Shown: piece after piece, positions 4,098 to 9,195 of the stretch
Position numbering within the stretch: position 1 is the first letter of the stretch
Layout of the letters: each line of letters opens with the position of its first letter
DNA from: Gammaproteobacteria bacterium
GTDB taxonomy: Bacteria > Pseudomonadota > Gammaproteobacteria > UBA9214
DNA: 60,741 nucleotides
Direction of reading: 5' to 3'
Assembly: GCA_029860045.1 (NCBI GenBank)
Contig: JAOUBY010000005.1
Coordinates: 1 to 60,741 of the forward strand
Translations under genes and position numbers: made by a program
The notes under the pieces: generated by a model
The model's input: only the letters and a program-made list of their open reading frames with translations
What the model was told of the DNA's origin: nothing
Databases searched by the model: none

Positions 4098-5399
4098 ATG
4101 ACCGAACACCTGATCATTGTTTATGGCCTTCCGATGCTGTTGATATGGGCCGGCTACCTGACATTGCGCAACCTGAAACAGTCCAGGGCGCATTCACAGA
4201 TGCTGGCCGCGCAGGCAGCCGGACTCACCCAACCGGCATCACTGCATCCCGTGATCAATAGCACTGTGTGTATCGGCTGCAGCTCCTGCATCAGTGCATG
4301 CCCGGAACAGAACGTGCTGGGCCTGATCCGCGACAAGGCCGAACTGATCAACCCCACGCACTGTATCGGACACGGCGCCTGCAATACTGCCTGCCCGATG
4401 AATGCCATCAGCCTGGTATTCGGTACCGCAGAACGCGGCGTGGACATTCCACTAGTGTCTCCGGATTTCGAAACCAACGTACCGGGCATCTATATCGCCG
4501 GTGAACTCGGTGGCATGGGGCTGATACGCAACGCGGTGGAACAGGGGCGCCAGGCAATGGCATCTATTATCCGTTCACGCCGGCAGCAAACCGGGCAGCA
4601 GCTCGATGTGCTGATTGTCGGTGCCGGACCGGCCGGACTGTCGGCCAGCCTGGCCGCACACGAGCAGGGCCTGCGCTACATCACCGTTGAACAGGACTCG
4701 CTGGGCGGCACGGTTGCGCACTTCCCGCGCGGCAAGGTAGTCATGACTGCACCGGTCAAGCTGCCAATCGTCGGGAAAATGAATTTCAGGGAGGTATCCA
4801 AGGAAGCCTTGCTGGAATTCTGGGAGAAAGTCATAGCTGACACTGGCGTTGACATCAATTTCAGCGAACGCGTCGAAACGATCAGTCCGGAAGGTAAAGG
4901 ATTTGCGGTAAAGACGGCATGCAATAGTTACCAGGCCGCGTCCGTGCTGATTGCCATTGGCCGGCGCGGCACACCACGCAGGCTTGGCGTGCCTGGTGAA
5001 GATTCTGCCAAGGTCGTGTACCGGCTGGTTGACCCGGAACAGTATCGCGGGCAAAGCGTGCTGGTCGTTGGCGGGGGCGACAGTGCACTGGAAGCCGCGG
5101 CAAGTATTGCCGAACAACCCGGAACCTGTGTCAGCCTGTCCTACCGCAGCGCATCATTCTCTCGGGCCAAGGAGAAAAACCGTATCCGCGTGGCTGAACT
5201 CAGCGACAGTGGCAGACTGAAAGTGCTGATGTCCTCCAATGTCATGTCCATTAACGATGCTGATGTTGTCATCGAGCAACAGGGCACACAGATACAACTG
5301 GGAAACGACGCGGTTATTGTCTGCGCAGGCGGCATACTGCCCACCGCATTTCTTCAAAAGACCGGCATCGAGGTAGAAACAAAATATGGCACCAGCTGA
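4098..5399 (+). CDS. Membrane-anchored 4Fe-4S ferredoxin / FAD-NAD(P) oxidoreductase
   Basis: The 433-aa protein starts with one hydrophobic helix (residues 4-22). It then has two ferredoxin motifs: CIGCSSCISACP (C58, C61, C64, C68) and CIGHGACNTACP, in which the second cysteine position is a histidine (H92). A Rossmann FAD site VGAGPAG (about 174-180) and an NAD(P) site VGGGDSA (about 323-329) follow in a thioredoxin-reductase-like arrangement. It is divergent from the multiheme operon and overlaps the ankyrin gene by 14 nt. I infer that it exchanges electrons between NAD(P)H or ferredoxin and the membrane chain, possibly the neighbouring b-type protein. The role is uncertain; the fold assignment is strong. 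Confidence 0.85.
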   Translation: MTEHLIIVYGLPMLLIWAGYLTLRNLKQSRAHSQMLAAQAAGLTQPASLHPVINSTVCIGCSSCISACPEQNVLGLIRDKAELINPTHCIGHGACNTACPMNAISLVFGTAERGVDIPLVSPDFETNVPGIYIAGELGGMGLIRNAVEQGRQAMASIIRSRRQQTGQQLDVLIVGAGPAGLSASLAAHEQGLRYITVEQDSLGGTVAHFPRGKVVMTAPVKLPIVGKMNFREVSKEALLEFWEKVIADTGVDINFSERVETISPEGKGFAVKTACNSYQAASVLIAIGRRGTPRRLGVPGEDSAKVVYRLVDPEQYRGQSVLVVGGGDSALEAAASIAEQPGTCVSLSYRSASFSRAKEKNRIRVAELSDSGRLKVLMSSNVMSINDADVVIEQQGTQIQLGNDAVIVCAGGILPTAFLQKTGIEVETKYGTS

Positions 5400-7449
5400 C
5401 ATGACCAGGAGCACCTGGCATACATTCCCCCTGGGCGTCATGGCGACGCTGGCGCGTGTCTGCCTGCTTTGCATGCTGTCAGCACTGTGCAACCCGTCAG
5501 TTACGCTTGCGGACACTACCAAACTGGATGAATACCATGCCGCGGTACGTGTGCGCGACATGGACAGGGCAGCGAAAATTCTCTTGCCGCTGGCCAGGGA
5601 CGGCATGGCGGAGGCCCAGTACCAGCTGGCCGCGCTGTACCGCTCGGGCAATGGAGTAGAAAAGGACCACCGTATGGCATTCCAGTGGCTGCAGAAGGCA
5701 GCTGCACAGGACCATGCACAGGCACAGTACAACCTTGGTGTCATGTACGAACAGGGCTGGGGTACCGAAGCAGATTCGAAGAATGCCTTGCACTGGTACC
5801 GGCTTGCCGCCAGCCACGGACACAAAATGGCTGTCCGTAAACTGGAAGACACTCCTGCAGACAATGCAATTCAGAGTGATGTCAGCGCAGAAGAATTGTT
5901 ACGCCGCGCGGTCATCAGGGACGACCTGTCATCCACCCGTTCCCTGCTTGTGGCCGGCGCGGATGTCGATAGTAGCGACGATTACCAGAGAACAATCCTG
6001 ATGGATGCCGCAGAACTGGGTAACCCCGAGATCTTCGCACTGCTGGTTAGCCACAGCAGAAAACCGGACTTACAGGATGCCAGCGGCGAAACCGCTCTGC
6101 ATATCGCAGTCAGTAACGACCGCCAGCCGATCGTAAAACTACTGCTTTCAGCGGGGGCCAGCGCCGGCATCGCGGATCAACGCGGTAACACGCCACTTAT
6201 GATTGCCGCCGGCAGAAACCAGCTCACCATTTTCAGAGCACTGCTTGACAGTCACTCACGCCCCGAAGCCAGTAACAGCGCCGGACTGACGGCTGCTGAT
6301 ATTGCTGCGCGCAAGCAAAACGAAAAAATCCTGAAACTGTTGTCGGGGCATGGCATATACCCTGCCCGAAGCCATACAAAGTCACCCGCACATGCCTCGG
6401 AACTGCTCGCTCTGCAGGAAGAAACAGCGGCAGACAGACCTTCACCGCAGCATGCCATGTCTCCACTAAACGAGGCAGCATGGCGCGGACAGGAAAACAT
6501 CGTGCGCGAACTCATCAGGCAAGACGCCAGCATCAACAGCCGTGATAGCGAAGGTCATACCGCATTGTCGCGCGCCGCATGGAAGGGACACAGTGCAATT
6601 GTCGAATTACTCCTGGACAGTGGAGCCCGCGCGGACATTGTACTCGATGGCGGCATAACGCCGCTGATGTACGGCACGCTCTCGGGTGATGATGCTACGG
6701 TTGTTGCATTACTGGATAGCGGCGTTGATACCAACGCCCGACAGCACGACGGACGCACCGCATTACACCTGGCTGTAGCCGGCGACTACACAGATATTGT
6801 CCGGCTACTGCTGTTACATCAGGCCGACATCGCGCTGGCCGATTCAGATGACAGAACCGTGCTGATGCTGGCAGCGCAGCTCGACAGTCCGCACATACTG
6901 GGAGACCTGCTGGACCGCAACCCCGCCATCAATGCCCGCGACCGCAATGCACATACGGCACTCTGGCACGCAACCCGCAATGGGCTGCCACGTAACACCG
7001 GTTTACTGCTGCAGCGGGGCGCCGATCCGGAGGTTAGTGACCGCAAGGGTCATACCGCGCTGACACTGGCTGCCTCACGGGCAGACAAGGTAATCGCCAA
7101 GCAGCTGGTCAGGCACAAGGCCGATATCAACGTCCGCACCCATGATGAAAACACGCCCCTGATGCTGGCCGCACAGGCGGGTGCTGACGGGCTTGCACAA
7201 CACCTGATCGATTCCGGCGCCGAGGTGAATGCCAGGAACCGGCAGGGCGATACCGCGCTGATGCTGGCCGTCGCCCGTGGCGAGACGGTAACTGTCCGCA
7301 CCCTGCTGGAAGGCGGCGCGGATCTGCGCATCCGTAACAACAGCCGCGCACGGGCACGCGATATTGCCACCGCCGGGGGTTACGACAATATATTAGATCT
7401 GCTGAATAAACATGAGTCCCGGTCCAGCTGGAAGGCCAAATGGTTCTGA
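5386..7449 (+). CDS. Secreted Sel1-repeat and ankyrin-repeat protein
   Basis: The 687-aa protein has an N-terminal hydrophobic export signal (CLLCMLSALCNPSVTLA). Two Sel1/TPR-like repeats (AEAQYQLAALYRSGNGVEKD, AQAQYNLGVMYEQGWGTEAD, about 75-150) are followed by a long array of ankyrin repeats (TPLMIAA, TALSRAAWKGH, TALHLAVAGDY, TALMLAVARGE and others) to the C-terminus. The ATG at 5386 follows GAGG at a good distance and overlaps the oxidoreductase stop; ATG 5401 is the alternative. It is probably a periplasmic scaffold or partner protein for the upstream redox gene; no enzymatic motif is visible. Confidence 0.85.
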   Translation: MAPADMTRSTWHTFPLGVMATLARVCLLCMLSALCNPSVTLADTTKLDEYHAAVRVRDMDRAAKILLPLARDGMAEAQYQLAALYRSGNGVEKDHRMAFQWLQKAAAQDHAQAQYNLGVMYEQGWGTEADSKNALHWYRLAASHGHKMAVRKLEDTPADNAIQSDVSAEELLRRAVIRDDLSSTRSLLVAGADVDSSDDYQRTILMDAAELGNPEIFALLVSHSRKPDLQDASGETALHIAVSNDRQPIVKLLLSAGASAGIADQRGNTPLMIAAGRNQLTIFRALLDSHSRPEASNSAGLTAADIAARKQNEKILKLLSGHGIYPARSHTKSPAHASELLALQEETAADRPSPQHAMSPLNEAAWRGQENIVRELIRQDASINSRDSEGHTALSRAAWKGHSAIVELLLDSGARADIVLDGGITPLMYGTLSGDDATVVALLDSGVDTNARQHDGRTALHLAVAGDYTDIVRLLLLHQADIALADSDDRTVLMLAAQLDSPHILGDLLDRNPAINARDRNAHTALWHATRNGLPRNTGLLLQRGADPEVSDRKGHTALTLAASRADKVIAKQLVRHKADINVRTHDENTPLMLAAQAGADGLAQHLIDSGAEVNARNRQGDTALMLAVARGETVTVRTLLEGGADLRIRNNSRARARDIATAGGYDNILDLLNKHESRSSWKAKWF

Positions 7450-7450
7450 A

Positions 7451-7464
7451 TTGATCTATGTCAA
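7451..7464 (+). promoter_or_regulatory. FNR/DNR-type box TTGATCTATGTCAA
   Basis: The site begins two bases after the ankyrin gene stop. It lies between convergent genes, so no protein gene is in position to use it. A class II spacing (centre at -41.5) predicts a start near 7499, exactly at the start of a stem-loop and terminator pair. Confidence 0.6.
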
Positions 7465-7498
7465 TGTCTCAGCAGCGCGCACCTGACAGTATGTACCC

Positions 7499-7561
7499 AT
7501 GTTGTGACATTGAGCTTGCAACATCTCCCACACTTCGCGGGCCTTGTGCCCGCGTCTTTTT
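7499..7561 (+). ncRNA. Candidate FNR/DNR-activated small RNA, about 63 nt
   Basis: The predicted start lies about 42 nt from the FNR box centre. The transcript would begin with a stem ATGTTG (7499-7504) pairing with CAACAT (7519-7524). It would then have a single-stranded stretch catctcccacactt and end in a strong terminator hairpin CGCGGGC/GCCCGCG (7536-7554) with a T run (7557-7561). The -10 region is weak (cagtat). An alternative reading is a plain terminator of the ankyrin gene with a fortuitous box. Comparison with FNR-dependent regulatory RNAs such as FnrS is by analogy only. Confidence 0.45.
7536..7561 (+). terminator. Rho-independent terminator after the ankyrin gene / candidate sRNA
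   Basis: Stem CGCGGGC-cttgt-GCCCGCG is followed by gtcTTTTT on the plus strand. Confidence 0.75.
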
Positions 7562-7606: not shown

Positions 7607-8065
7607 TTAGCGCGCACTGAGAACGTCGTGAAAGATCGATCGCAGATCGCTCTCCCAGCGCGCAAAGAAAACAGGATCAATCGCATCACCTGCAATCCGG
7701 GCATACACTCCCGGGTTAATCGTCACCAGCACTGTCTGTCCGCCCTCGGCAAAAATGGAGATTTTCGGGGGCATGTAGGGGATCAGCTGCGGCGCCTTCT
7801 CTGTCAACATGCGGATTTCATCGATCTTGCCGGCAAACACGATACGGTACTTGTCAGTCGGGTAACCCATGCCGGTCAGCCCGATATCAATACGCTGCAC
7901 CCGTGATACCGTGTAGCCATGTCCGGTAATGGATTCCTGCAATGCCAGCATGGTCTCGGGAAACGGTAACACCGAACGTATCATGATCATGTCTTCAGCC
8001 GCTGCCGTCACCGTGACCTGTAGTAACAGCCACACCAGCAGCACTTGCAGAGTACTTTTTCTCAC
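7607..8065 (-). CDS. Secreted DUF302 domain protein
   Basis: The protein is 152 aa from a GTG at 8065 that overlaps the upstream stop as GTGA and is preceded by GGAGG; the track start at 8116 lies within the upstream gene. A signal peptide (LQVLLVWLLLQVTVTAAA) precedes a DUF302-like domain (ETMLALQESITGHGYTVSRVQRIDIGL, then a basic/hydrophobic sheet region to the end). DUF302 proteins are small periplasmic or cytoplasmic proteins of unclear role, often near sulfur or copper genes. It is translationally coupled to a cytochrome c-DUF302 fusion, suggesting a shared function. Confidence 0.75.
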   Translation of the reverse strand: MRKSTLQVLLVWLLLQVTVTAAAEDMIMIRSVLPFPETMLALQESITGHGYTVSRVQRIDIGLTGMGYPTDKYRIVFAGKIDEIRMLTEKAPQLIPYMPPKISIFAEGGQTVLVTINPGVYARIAGDAIDPVFFARWESDLRSIFHDVLSAR

Positions 8066-9096
8066 AGCGTCGCCTCCTCCATGATCTCCAGGTACACCGC
8101 GCGCATGCGCCTGCAATATTCATCCAGATCGGAATTGTTAAACAGGTGACTGAGGTACGGGGGGTTAAGGGTACTGATGGTCACCTTGCCGCCCTGCTCC
8201 GTTACCGTGACCCGGCAGGGCAGGAATATACCCACACGCGGGTCAACTGCCAGCGCCTCATACAGGAACCTGAAATTACAGAAATGCAGGATGACCTGCT
8301 GCTGGTTCTCCTGCGCTTTCTCTACCAGTCCGTGTTCCAGGGTATCGGACCGGATCAGGACGAAATTCTGGCTGATGATGGCCTGTTTGAGGTTTTCGAC
8401 GGTTTCCTCAATCGAGTAAGGTGAGTCAACCGTTATTGTCGCCAGTTCACCGGTTTTATCTGCTGCCTTGACGGGGTCCTTGCTCTCGAAGGACCTCACG
8501 TAACTGACCAGGTCATCGATATCGCGCTCGGACAGGCCCTGCTCAAGGAAGGAACGCATTGGCGAGCCTTTACGCCCGAACTGCAAGGTGTGCTTTATCA
8601 TGGCGTCTGTCGCGGCGCGCAGGAAGCCGCTGTTGTTGAGCGCCGGCGCAATAATTGGCTGGTCCCGATGACGTGAAAGGGTAATACCTGTCCCTCTCCC
8701 CCCCTCGCCACTGGCCCCGTGACAACCTGCACAACGGGTGGCAAACAGTGCCTTGCCATGCTGCGCATCGCCCGACACCGGTGTCGACGCGTAAACCGGA
8801 GCCGGTTGCTTCGACCAGCTACGTATGAAGGCCACAATCGCGTTGGTCTGCGCATCACTCAATGCACTGAAGGCAGGCATGACCCGGCCGGGGCGTCCGT
8901 AACGTATGCTGATAGCCAGAAACCGGTCATCGACGCTGTCGAGAAAGGACGGCAACGACAGCGGCACACCGACACCACCACCGCCCTTGTCGCCATGACA
9001 GGCCGCACAGTGGCTTGCATACAGGGCCGTGCCATCCGGCGCAGCAACGGCAACCAGGCTAACAGCAAGTAAAAAAAGTCCAATAATCAAACGCAT
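8062..9096 (-). CDS. Diheme cytochrome c fused to a DUF302 domain
   Basis: The protein is about 344 aa from the ATG at MRLIIGLF (an in-frame GTG nine codons earlier is less likely). A signal peptide ends near VAVAA. Two class I cytochrome c domains follow with CAACH (30-34) and CAGCH (122-126) and likely Met ligands in VMPAF and SPMRSF. A C-terminal DUF302 domain (about 215-330, IEETVENLKQAIISQNFVLIRSD and VGIFLPCRVTV) is attached. The fusion suggests that the DUF302 module senses or delivers something linked to electron transfer. The FNR-like box at 9182 lies about 90 bp upstream. Confidence 0.82.
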   Translation of the reverse strand: MRLIIGLFLLAVSLVAVAAPDGTALYASHCAACHGDKGGGGVGVPLSLPSFLDSVDDRFLAISIRYGRPGRVMPAFSALSDAQTNAIVAFIRSWSKQPAPVYASTPVSGDAQHGKALFATRCAGCHGASGEGGRGTGITLSRHRDQPIIAPALNNSGFLRAATDAMIKHTLQFGRKGSPMRSFLEQGLSERDIDDLVSYVRSFESKDPVKAADKTGELATITVDSPYSIEETVENLKQAIISQNFVLIRSDTLEHGLVEKAQENQQQVILHFCNFRFLYEALAVDPRVGIFLPCRVTVTEQGGKVTISTLNPPYLSHLFNNSDLDEYCRRMRAVYLEIMEEATL

Positions 9097-9181
9097 AATC
9101 AGGATAATCTCCCGTGGGCGCACACCTTTAATAATAAGAAATCAACGTTATAATAATATTATCATATATATGTATGTTTTT

Positions 9182-9195
9182 TTGACGCAGGTCAA
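9182..9195. promoter_or_regulatory. FNR/DNR-like box TTGACGCAGGTCAA
   Basis: A perfect TTGAC-N4-GTCAA palindrome lies between the divergent cytochrome-DUF302 gene and the sulfur globule gene. On the plus strand, CATAAT at 9221-9226 is a plausible -10 element. It could serve both directions. Confidence 0.55.

Follow-up and report, generated by a model that had tools for sequence, protein, structure and literature searches.

A Candidate FNR-Type-Driven Small RNA Family in an Uncultured Gammaproteobacterial Lineage

Gene Organization and Predicted Elements of the Locus

The locus occupies positions 7451 to 7561 of contig JAOUBY010000005.1 (assembly GCA_029860045.1; Gammaproteobacteria, UBA9214), of which positions 1 to 60,741 (forward strand) were analyzed and are referred to here as the window; the genome itself is designated G000. 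Upstream, on the same strand, lies a gene for a protein with Sel1 and ankyrin repeats (5386–7449, +; identified by Pfam) that ends in a TGA codon at 7447–7449. The opposite flank is occupied by a convergent gene (7607–8116, −) for a 169-aa DUF302-like protein, which has no Pfam hit of its own and is weakly similar to the DUF302-bearing neighbor protein in relatives. An earlier note on this DNA had placed an FNR-type box 2 nt after the stop codon, with no protein gene following on that strand. Both observations were reproduced: the box, TTGATCTATGTCAA (7451–7464, +), differs from TTGATNNNNATCAA at one position and begins two bases past the TGA, and no plus-strand ORF occurs between it and the convergent gene. 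Counting from the box center at 7457.5, the class II spacing of −41.5 places the predicted transcription start at 7499, in agreement with the note. The predicted −10 hexamer, CAGTAT (7487–7492, +), sits where the TATAAT match of the homologues peaks (box+36). With only three of six positions matching, it is weak and represents the weakest element of the locus in G000, while being well formed in most of its relatives.

Together, the class II spacing and the terminator delimit a predicted small RNA (sRNA) of 63 nt (7499–7561, +). Folding of this RNA revealed a 5′ hairpin of 9 bp with an 8-nt loop (7499–7524, +), an open stretch with cucccacacuu, and a 7-bp all-GC terminator helix with its U tail (CGCGGGC-CUUGU-GCCCGCG followed by UCUUUUU; 7536–7561, +). 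The open stretch contains a C-rich unpaired seed, CUCCCACAC (7525–7533, +), complementary to the Shine-Dalgarno-type sequence GUGUGGGAG. The strong terminator previously proposed to end at 7561 was recovered twice, by folding (z of −4.64 for the terminator alone) and by a separate terminator search independent of the RNA fold. As for the structured nature of the transcript, the RNA as a whole folds with −20.2 kcal/mol (z of −2.95), and its 5′ part alone reached a z of only −0.84. The predicted RNA stops about 45 bases short of the end of the convergent gene (7607–8116, −), which makes a cis-antisense action on that gene unlikely.

FNR-Type Boxes of the Window and Candidate Regulators

A survey of the window disclosed 39 boxes with two or fewer mismatches (20.5 expected) and 10 strict TTGAY-N4-RTCAA boxes, the one at 7451 included, compared with 0.1 in base shuffles. 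Since boxes are this common, a single one proves little, and the case is carried by the conserved arrangement described below. The other strict boxes (at 9182, 14942, 15546, 23410, 23567, 31359, 31754, 50343, and 56259) are found near cytochrome/DUF302, antiporter, CBS-domain, cytochrome c/beta-propeller (cd1 nitrite reductase-like), and hydrogenase-like genes, which gives the region the appearance of an anaerobic-respiration island. The box at 9182–9195 is symmetric (TTGACGCAGGTCAA) and is located about 58 bases upstream of a convergent cytochrome c-DUF302 gene (8062–9123, −), so the convergent neighbor of the sRNA may belong to the same regulon.

A protein scoring above the curated FNR cut-off (NF008365) was detected in all 23 genomes compared here, with the N-terminal cysteines present where inspected, and hfq was found in 17 of the 23, including G000. 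DNR-type and FNR-type boxes look alike, and the two regulators are not separable from the box sequence. Additional genes of the Crp/FNR family occur in G000 (C103; 92 bits, short of the FNR cut-off), and the window contains respiratory genes with boxes, one of them for a cytochrome c/beta-propeller protein resembling cd1-type nitrite reductase. These features would fit a promoter controlled by DNR/NNR in response to nitric oxide instead of by FNR in response to oxygen; with an FNR above the cut-off in every genome, we consider such control less likely. FNR is taken below as the more probable activator.

Conservation of the Promoter, Seed, and Terminator

All 23 genomes compared come from five genera of one family, which at the same time makes up the whole order sampled, and the orthologous site in relatives was located via the convergent 169-aa DUF302-like gene, which adjoins the sRNA in 14 genomes. 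Downstream of this gene, 13 genomes including G000 contain the FNR box, the −10 element, CTCC(C), and the terminator in the same orientation; altogether, 16 loci in 15 genomes share a common layout. The box half-sites TTGA and TCAA (eight positions) are invariant in 16/16 loci. Averaged over the loci, the TATAAT match is highest at box+36 (3.88 of 6), which corresponds exactly to −12 to −7 when transcription begins at box+48; the next highest value is 3.06 at box+39, against a background of mostly 0.8–2.4. The best −10 match reached 4.6, as opposed to 2.9 in shuffles (shuffle maximum, 3.75). CTCC is likewise kept in all 16 loci and extends to CTCCCA in most; CUCCCAC/U is the most conserved segment of the transcript and mostly unpaired in the predicted folds. 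The unpaired stretch catctcccacactt, highlighted in the earlier note, contains this segment. The terminator helix displays three pairs with compensatory changes.

A blast search with the 131-nt locus gave significant matches outside G000 that span the seed-terminator part only, and the middle of the locus diverges quickly among relatives. Taken alone, this result would have pointed to conservation of the terminator only, but the box proved to be present in the orthologous regions as well. Conservation of the box, stem, and terminator, proposed earlier as a check with retention of the terminator alone as the refuting outcome, was confirmed in part: the box, −10 spacing, and terminator are present in 16/16 loci, whereas the 5′ hairpin is only partly retained. 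The stem predicted to start at 7499 in G000 occurs also in G009, but other stems appear in some relatives and none in G004, G007, and G013. Judged by comparison of the loci, the parts conserved across the family are the promoter, the seed, and the terminator, and the family as a whole does not share the 5′ hairpin that begins at 7499.

We also built a covariance model (R1) from the transcript sequence, leaving out both the box and the promoter. Searched against the 23 genomes, R1 recovered three strong loci absent from its seed set: one in G018 (5.5e-14), which likewise adjoins a DUF302-like gene, one in G011 (2.3e-7), and one in G001 (7.0e-7), where it is a second copy. All three are preceded by a TTGAY-N4-RTCAA box and then by TATAAT or TATAAA. 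The pattern TTGAYNNNNRTCAA-N47..77-CTCCCA, which leaves aside the longer-spacer variants of genus g5, gave 10 matches in the 23 genomes, 10/10 of them at the sRNA gene, and its reversed control gave none. L064 (G001:C166:351-410) and L054 (G011:C207:310-366) form a subtype that combines the seed CUCCCAUA with a long 5′ hairpin; the former is the second copy in G001, which suggests a duplication in part of the genus. The sRNA was not found in 8 of the 23 genomes (G002, G003, G005, G006, G012, G014, G015, and G022). Three of these (G003, G005, and G014) are >90% complete, indicating that the sRNA has been lost or has diverged there.

The predicted RNA measures about 63 nt in G000 and 53–95 nt in relatives, a range that bears on whether the transcript could instead encode a very small protein under the FNR promoter. 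Open stretches of 20–30 codons do occur in some loci, for example in G016 and G020, whose MIEAPPAFICTSVE frames are similar. However, no reading frame is common to the loci, the length differences are accompanied by frame-breaking changes, several transcripts lack any ORF of more than 10 codons, and many frames cross the terminator without a stop. We regard a coding function as extremely improbable.

Changing 5′ Neighbors and Free-Standing Status

Among the readable loci, tblastn placed the ankyrin gene next to the sRNA on the same strand in G000 and G008 only. In G007, G013, G016, G017, G019, G020, and G021, the 5′ neighbor is a divergent pdxH-like gene (a name taken from protein-sequence inspection, not from a family search), and other genes occupy this position in G001, G004, G009, and G010. 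Thus, the 5′ neighbor varies among lineages and is mostly divergent.

This variation weighs on the possibility that the locus is simply the terminator of the ankyrin gene, at most a processed 3′ UTR, combined with a chance FNR-like site. The start of the box two bases past the ankyrin stop codon, the abundance of FNR-like sites in the window, and the same ankyrin-box arrangement in G008 would all agree with such an origin. Yet the other readable relatives have no ankyrin gene at this position, and the box, −10, seed, and terminator stay in place despite its absence, which renders the explanation very unlikely. Because the promoter-seed-terminator unit persists while its 5′ neighbor changes, a processed 3′ UTR is disfavored, and the predicted sRNA is a free-standing gene.

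Searches beyond the Family and Other sRNA-Like Elements

When 84,980 species genomes were scanned for the box, the seed, and GCGG, a pattern that misses variants with other spacing, four convincing loci emerged (JAOULY010000001, QIFB01000045, JAUVNM010000193, and CP070821), all members of the sRNA family; the other 17 matches lacked the layout and were discarded. The model search in a class sample of 369 genomes yielded nothing convincing, its other matches being mostly plain terminators without an FNR box. Among the rejected candidates was a locus in G368, a distant member of the same class (L072, C4:3195175-3195233), in which a CUCCC-type stretch (GGAGTCCCACTCCACTT) and a terminator scored 40 bits with R1 without an FNR box. 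DUF302-like loci in ten other families did not contain the box-seed-terminator arrangement. On this comparative evidence, the locus defines a new predicted sRNA family that is lineage-specific as far as searched.

Other sRNA-like elements were noticed in the lineage. Genus g5 has a second one, ...GTGCCAAAGGCAGTCTGTTTTT..CATAGTTATGACTCC(C/T)TCGAGGCGGCC followed by a terminator and without an FNR box, at L067 (G016), L057 (G022), and L069 (G021). Intergenic UCCC stretches before strong terminators, again with no FNR box, occur at L056 (G004:C281:7967-8031), L058 (G012:C63:1560-1618), and L060 (G015:C383:9281-9306) and are possibly other sRNAs of the lineage.

Target Prediction and the fnr Leader

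Exact TGTGGGAG-N3..11-ATG sites (UGUGGGAG before AUG) were overall not commoner than the reversed pattern, which gives no indication of a wide range of targets. In G013, a site in the fnr leader (GUGUGUGGGAGCCGUUGUAUG) stood out. Corresponding leader sites are AUGUGGGAGU in G017 (a 10-nt match), GUGGGAGU in G019, GUGGGAG in G000, and AGUGUGGG in genus g5, although G016 has an exact match of no more than 5 nt. Gene starts were ranked by their duplex energy with each genome's own seed, using samples of ~0.3–0.4 Mb per genome and a simple ORF finder. Among these sampled gene starts, fnr ranked 6/332 in G013, 1/273 in G017, 2/306 in G016, 7/363 in G000, and second of about 323 in G018, which places it in the top 0.3–2% in five genomes from three genera. 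With looser handling of start codons, its rank was 2.7–3.0% in G013, G016, and G000. The combined Fisher p for the fnr ranks was ~6e-5 with one genome per genus, and ~1e-3 without the genus where fnr was first noticed.

Target prediction from the unpaired stretch, as the earlier note had proposed, thus brought fnr to high ranks in five genomes, but about half of the sRNA carriers (G001, G004, and G007–G011) lack the pairing site, as do G003, G005, and G012. In G000, pairing is better for mddA (methanethiol methyltransferase) than for fnr and almost as good for leuA as for fnr, and C-rich seeds such as this one fit many Shine-Dalgarno sites. mddA was set aside as a conserved target, having close homologues only in G001, where the site is missing. 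The mRNA of fnr, with predicted pairing at its ribosome-binding site, is the best candidate target found, and we put it forward tentatively and with low confidence. The pairing is suggestive of an sRNA-based negative feedback on fnr. Two points weaken this reading: half of the carriers lack the site, and C-rich seeds have a general affinity for ribosome-binding sites. In the literature searched, the terms 'fnr mRNA' and 'sRNA' did not occur together in any paper.

Alternatively, the sRNA could be real and FNR-driven and yet act on other mRNAs and not on fnr, as does FnrS, which represses >30 mRNAs for functions dispensable in anaerobiosis (PMC8139620). The missing fnr sites and the competing mddA and leuA sites in G000 speak for this reading, while the high ranks of fnr in three genera, and their p value without the genus of first notice, speak against it. 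We judge the chances of this alternative to be about even.

Proposed Mechanism and Comparison with Known sRNAs

Judging from the conservation of its promoter, seed, and terminator, from the FNR and Hfq genes found, and from the lack of a conserved ORF, the locus is very probably an FNR-type-driven small regulatory RNA gene, which supports the FNR/DNR-activated sRNA first suggested for it. Its expression, oxygen response, Hfq dependence, and targets are what we infer from these sequences. In the proposed mechanism, oxygen limitation would lead a dimer of FNR, or of a related FNR-type regulator such as DNR, to bind the box at 7451–7464 and activate the class II promoter, with transcription beginning near 7499. 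RNA polymerase would halt at the terminator ending at 7561, releasing an RNA of about 63 nt, whose unpaired C-rich CUCCCACAC would pair, probably with Hfq, with ribosome-binding sites of the GGGAG type and block translation of the target mRNAs. The sRNA is thus probably switched on by FNR when oxygen runs out and may lower the expression of other genes, among them perhaps the gene for the sensor. If fnr mRNA were a target, the oxygen sensor would limit its own synthesis via RNA, an RNA-based negative feedback. Only a small number of model bacteria are known to have FNR-driven sRNAs, and the present analysis adds, from sequence alone, a predicted sRNA family that has a clear promoter and belongs to an uncultured lineage of Gammaproteobacteria.

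No Rfam family reaches its threshold at the locus. The only notable weak match is SorX (RF02784; 24.9 bits, E of 2e-4 to 4e-4), which falls below its threshold of 46.6 bits. SorX of Rhodobacter sphaeroides has the same layout of 5′ hairpin, unpaired CUCCC, and terminator; however, it is cut by RNase E from the ompR-1 3′ UTR and answers stress (PMC8625941), whereas the locus described here has its own predicted FNR-type promoter. The resemblance is one of form only, and we do not file the locus as SorX. AniS of Neisseria meningitidis is an anoxia-induced sRNA linked to FNR-repressed genes, with an inferred role of Hfq (PMC4423775). It is betaproteobacterial, and its sequence was compared via the Rfam scan, in which no match exceeded the threshold. 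Anaerobically controlled sRNAs of nitrate-respiring bacteria include PaiI of Pseudomonas aeruginosa, which is NarXL-dependent and 126 nt long, and NarS of Salmonella, which derives from the 3′ end of narK (PMC8139620). In contrast to both, the gene described here stands free, and its box points to direct control of the FNR type. FnrS of Escherichia coli and Salmonella, a free-standing sRNA activated by FNR in anoxia (PMC8139620), gave no Rfam match at the locus at gathering level or at E ≤ 10 and differs in host lineage, neighbors, and sequence; no control by ArcA or CRP is known for the locus described here. Being likewise a free-standing sRNA under predicted FNR-type control, the candidate described here would be a functional analogue of FnrS.
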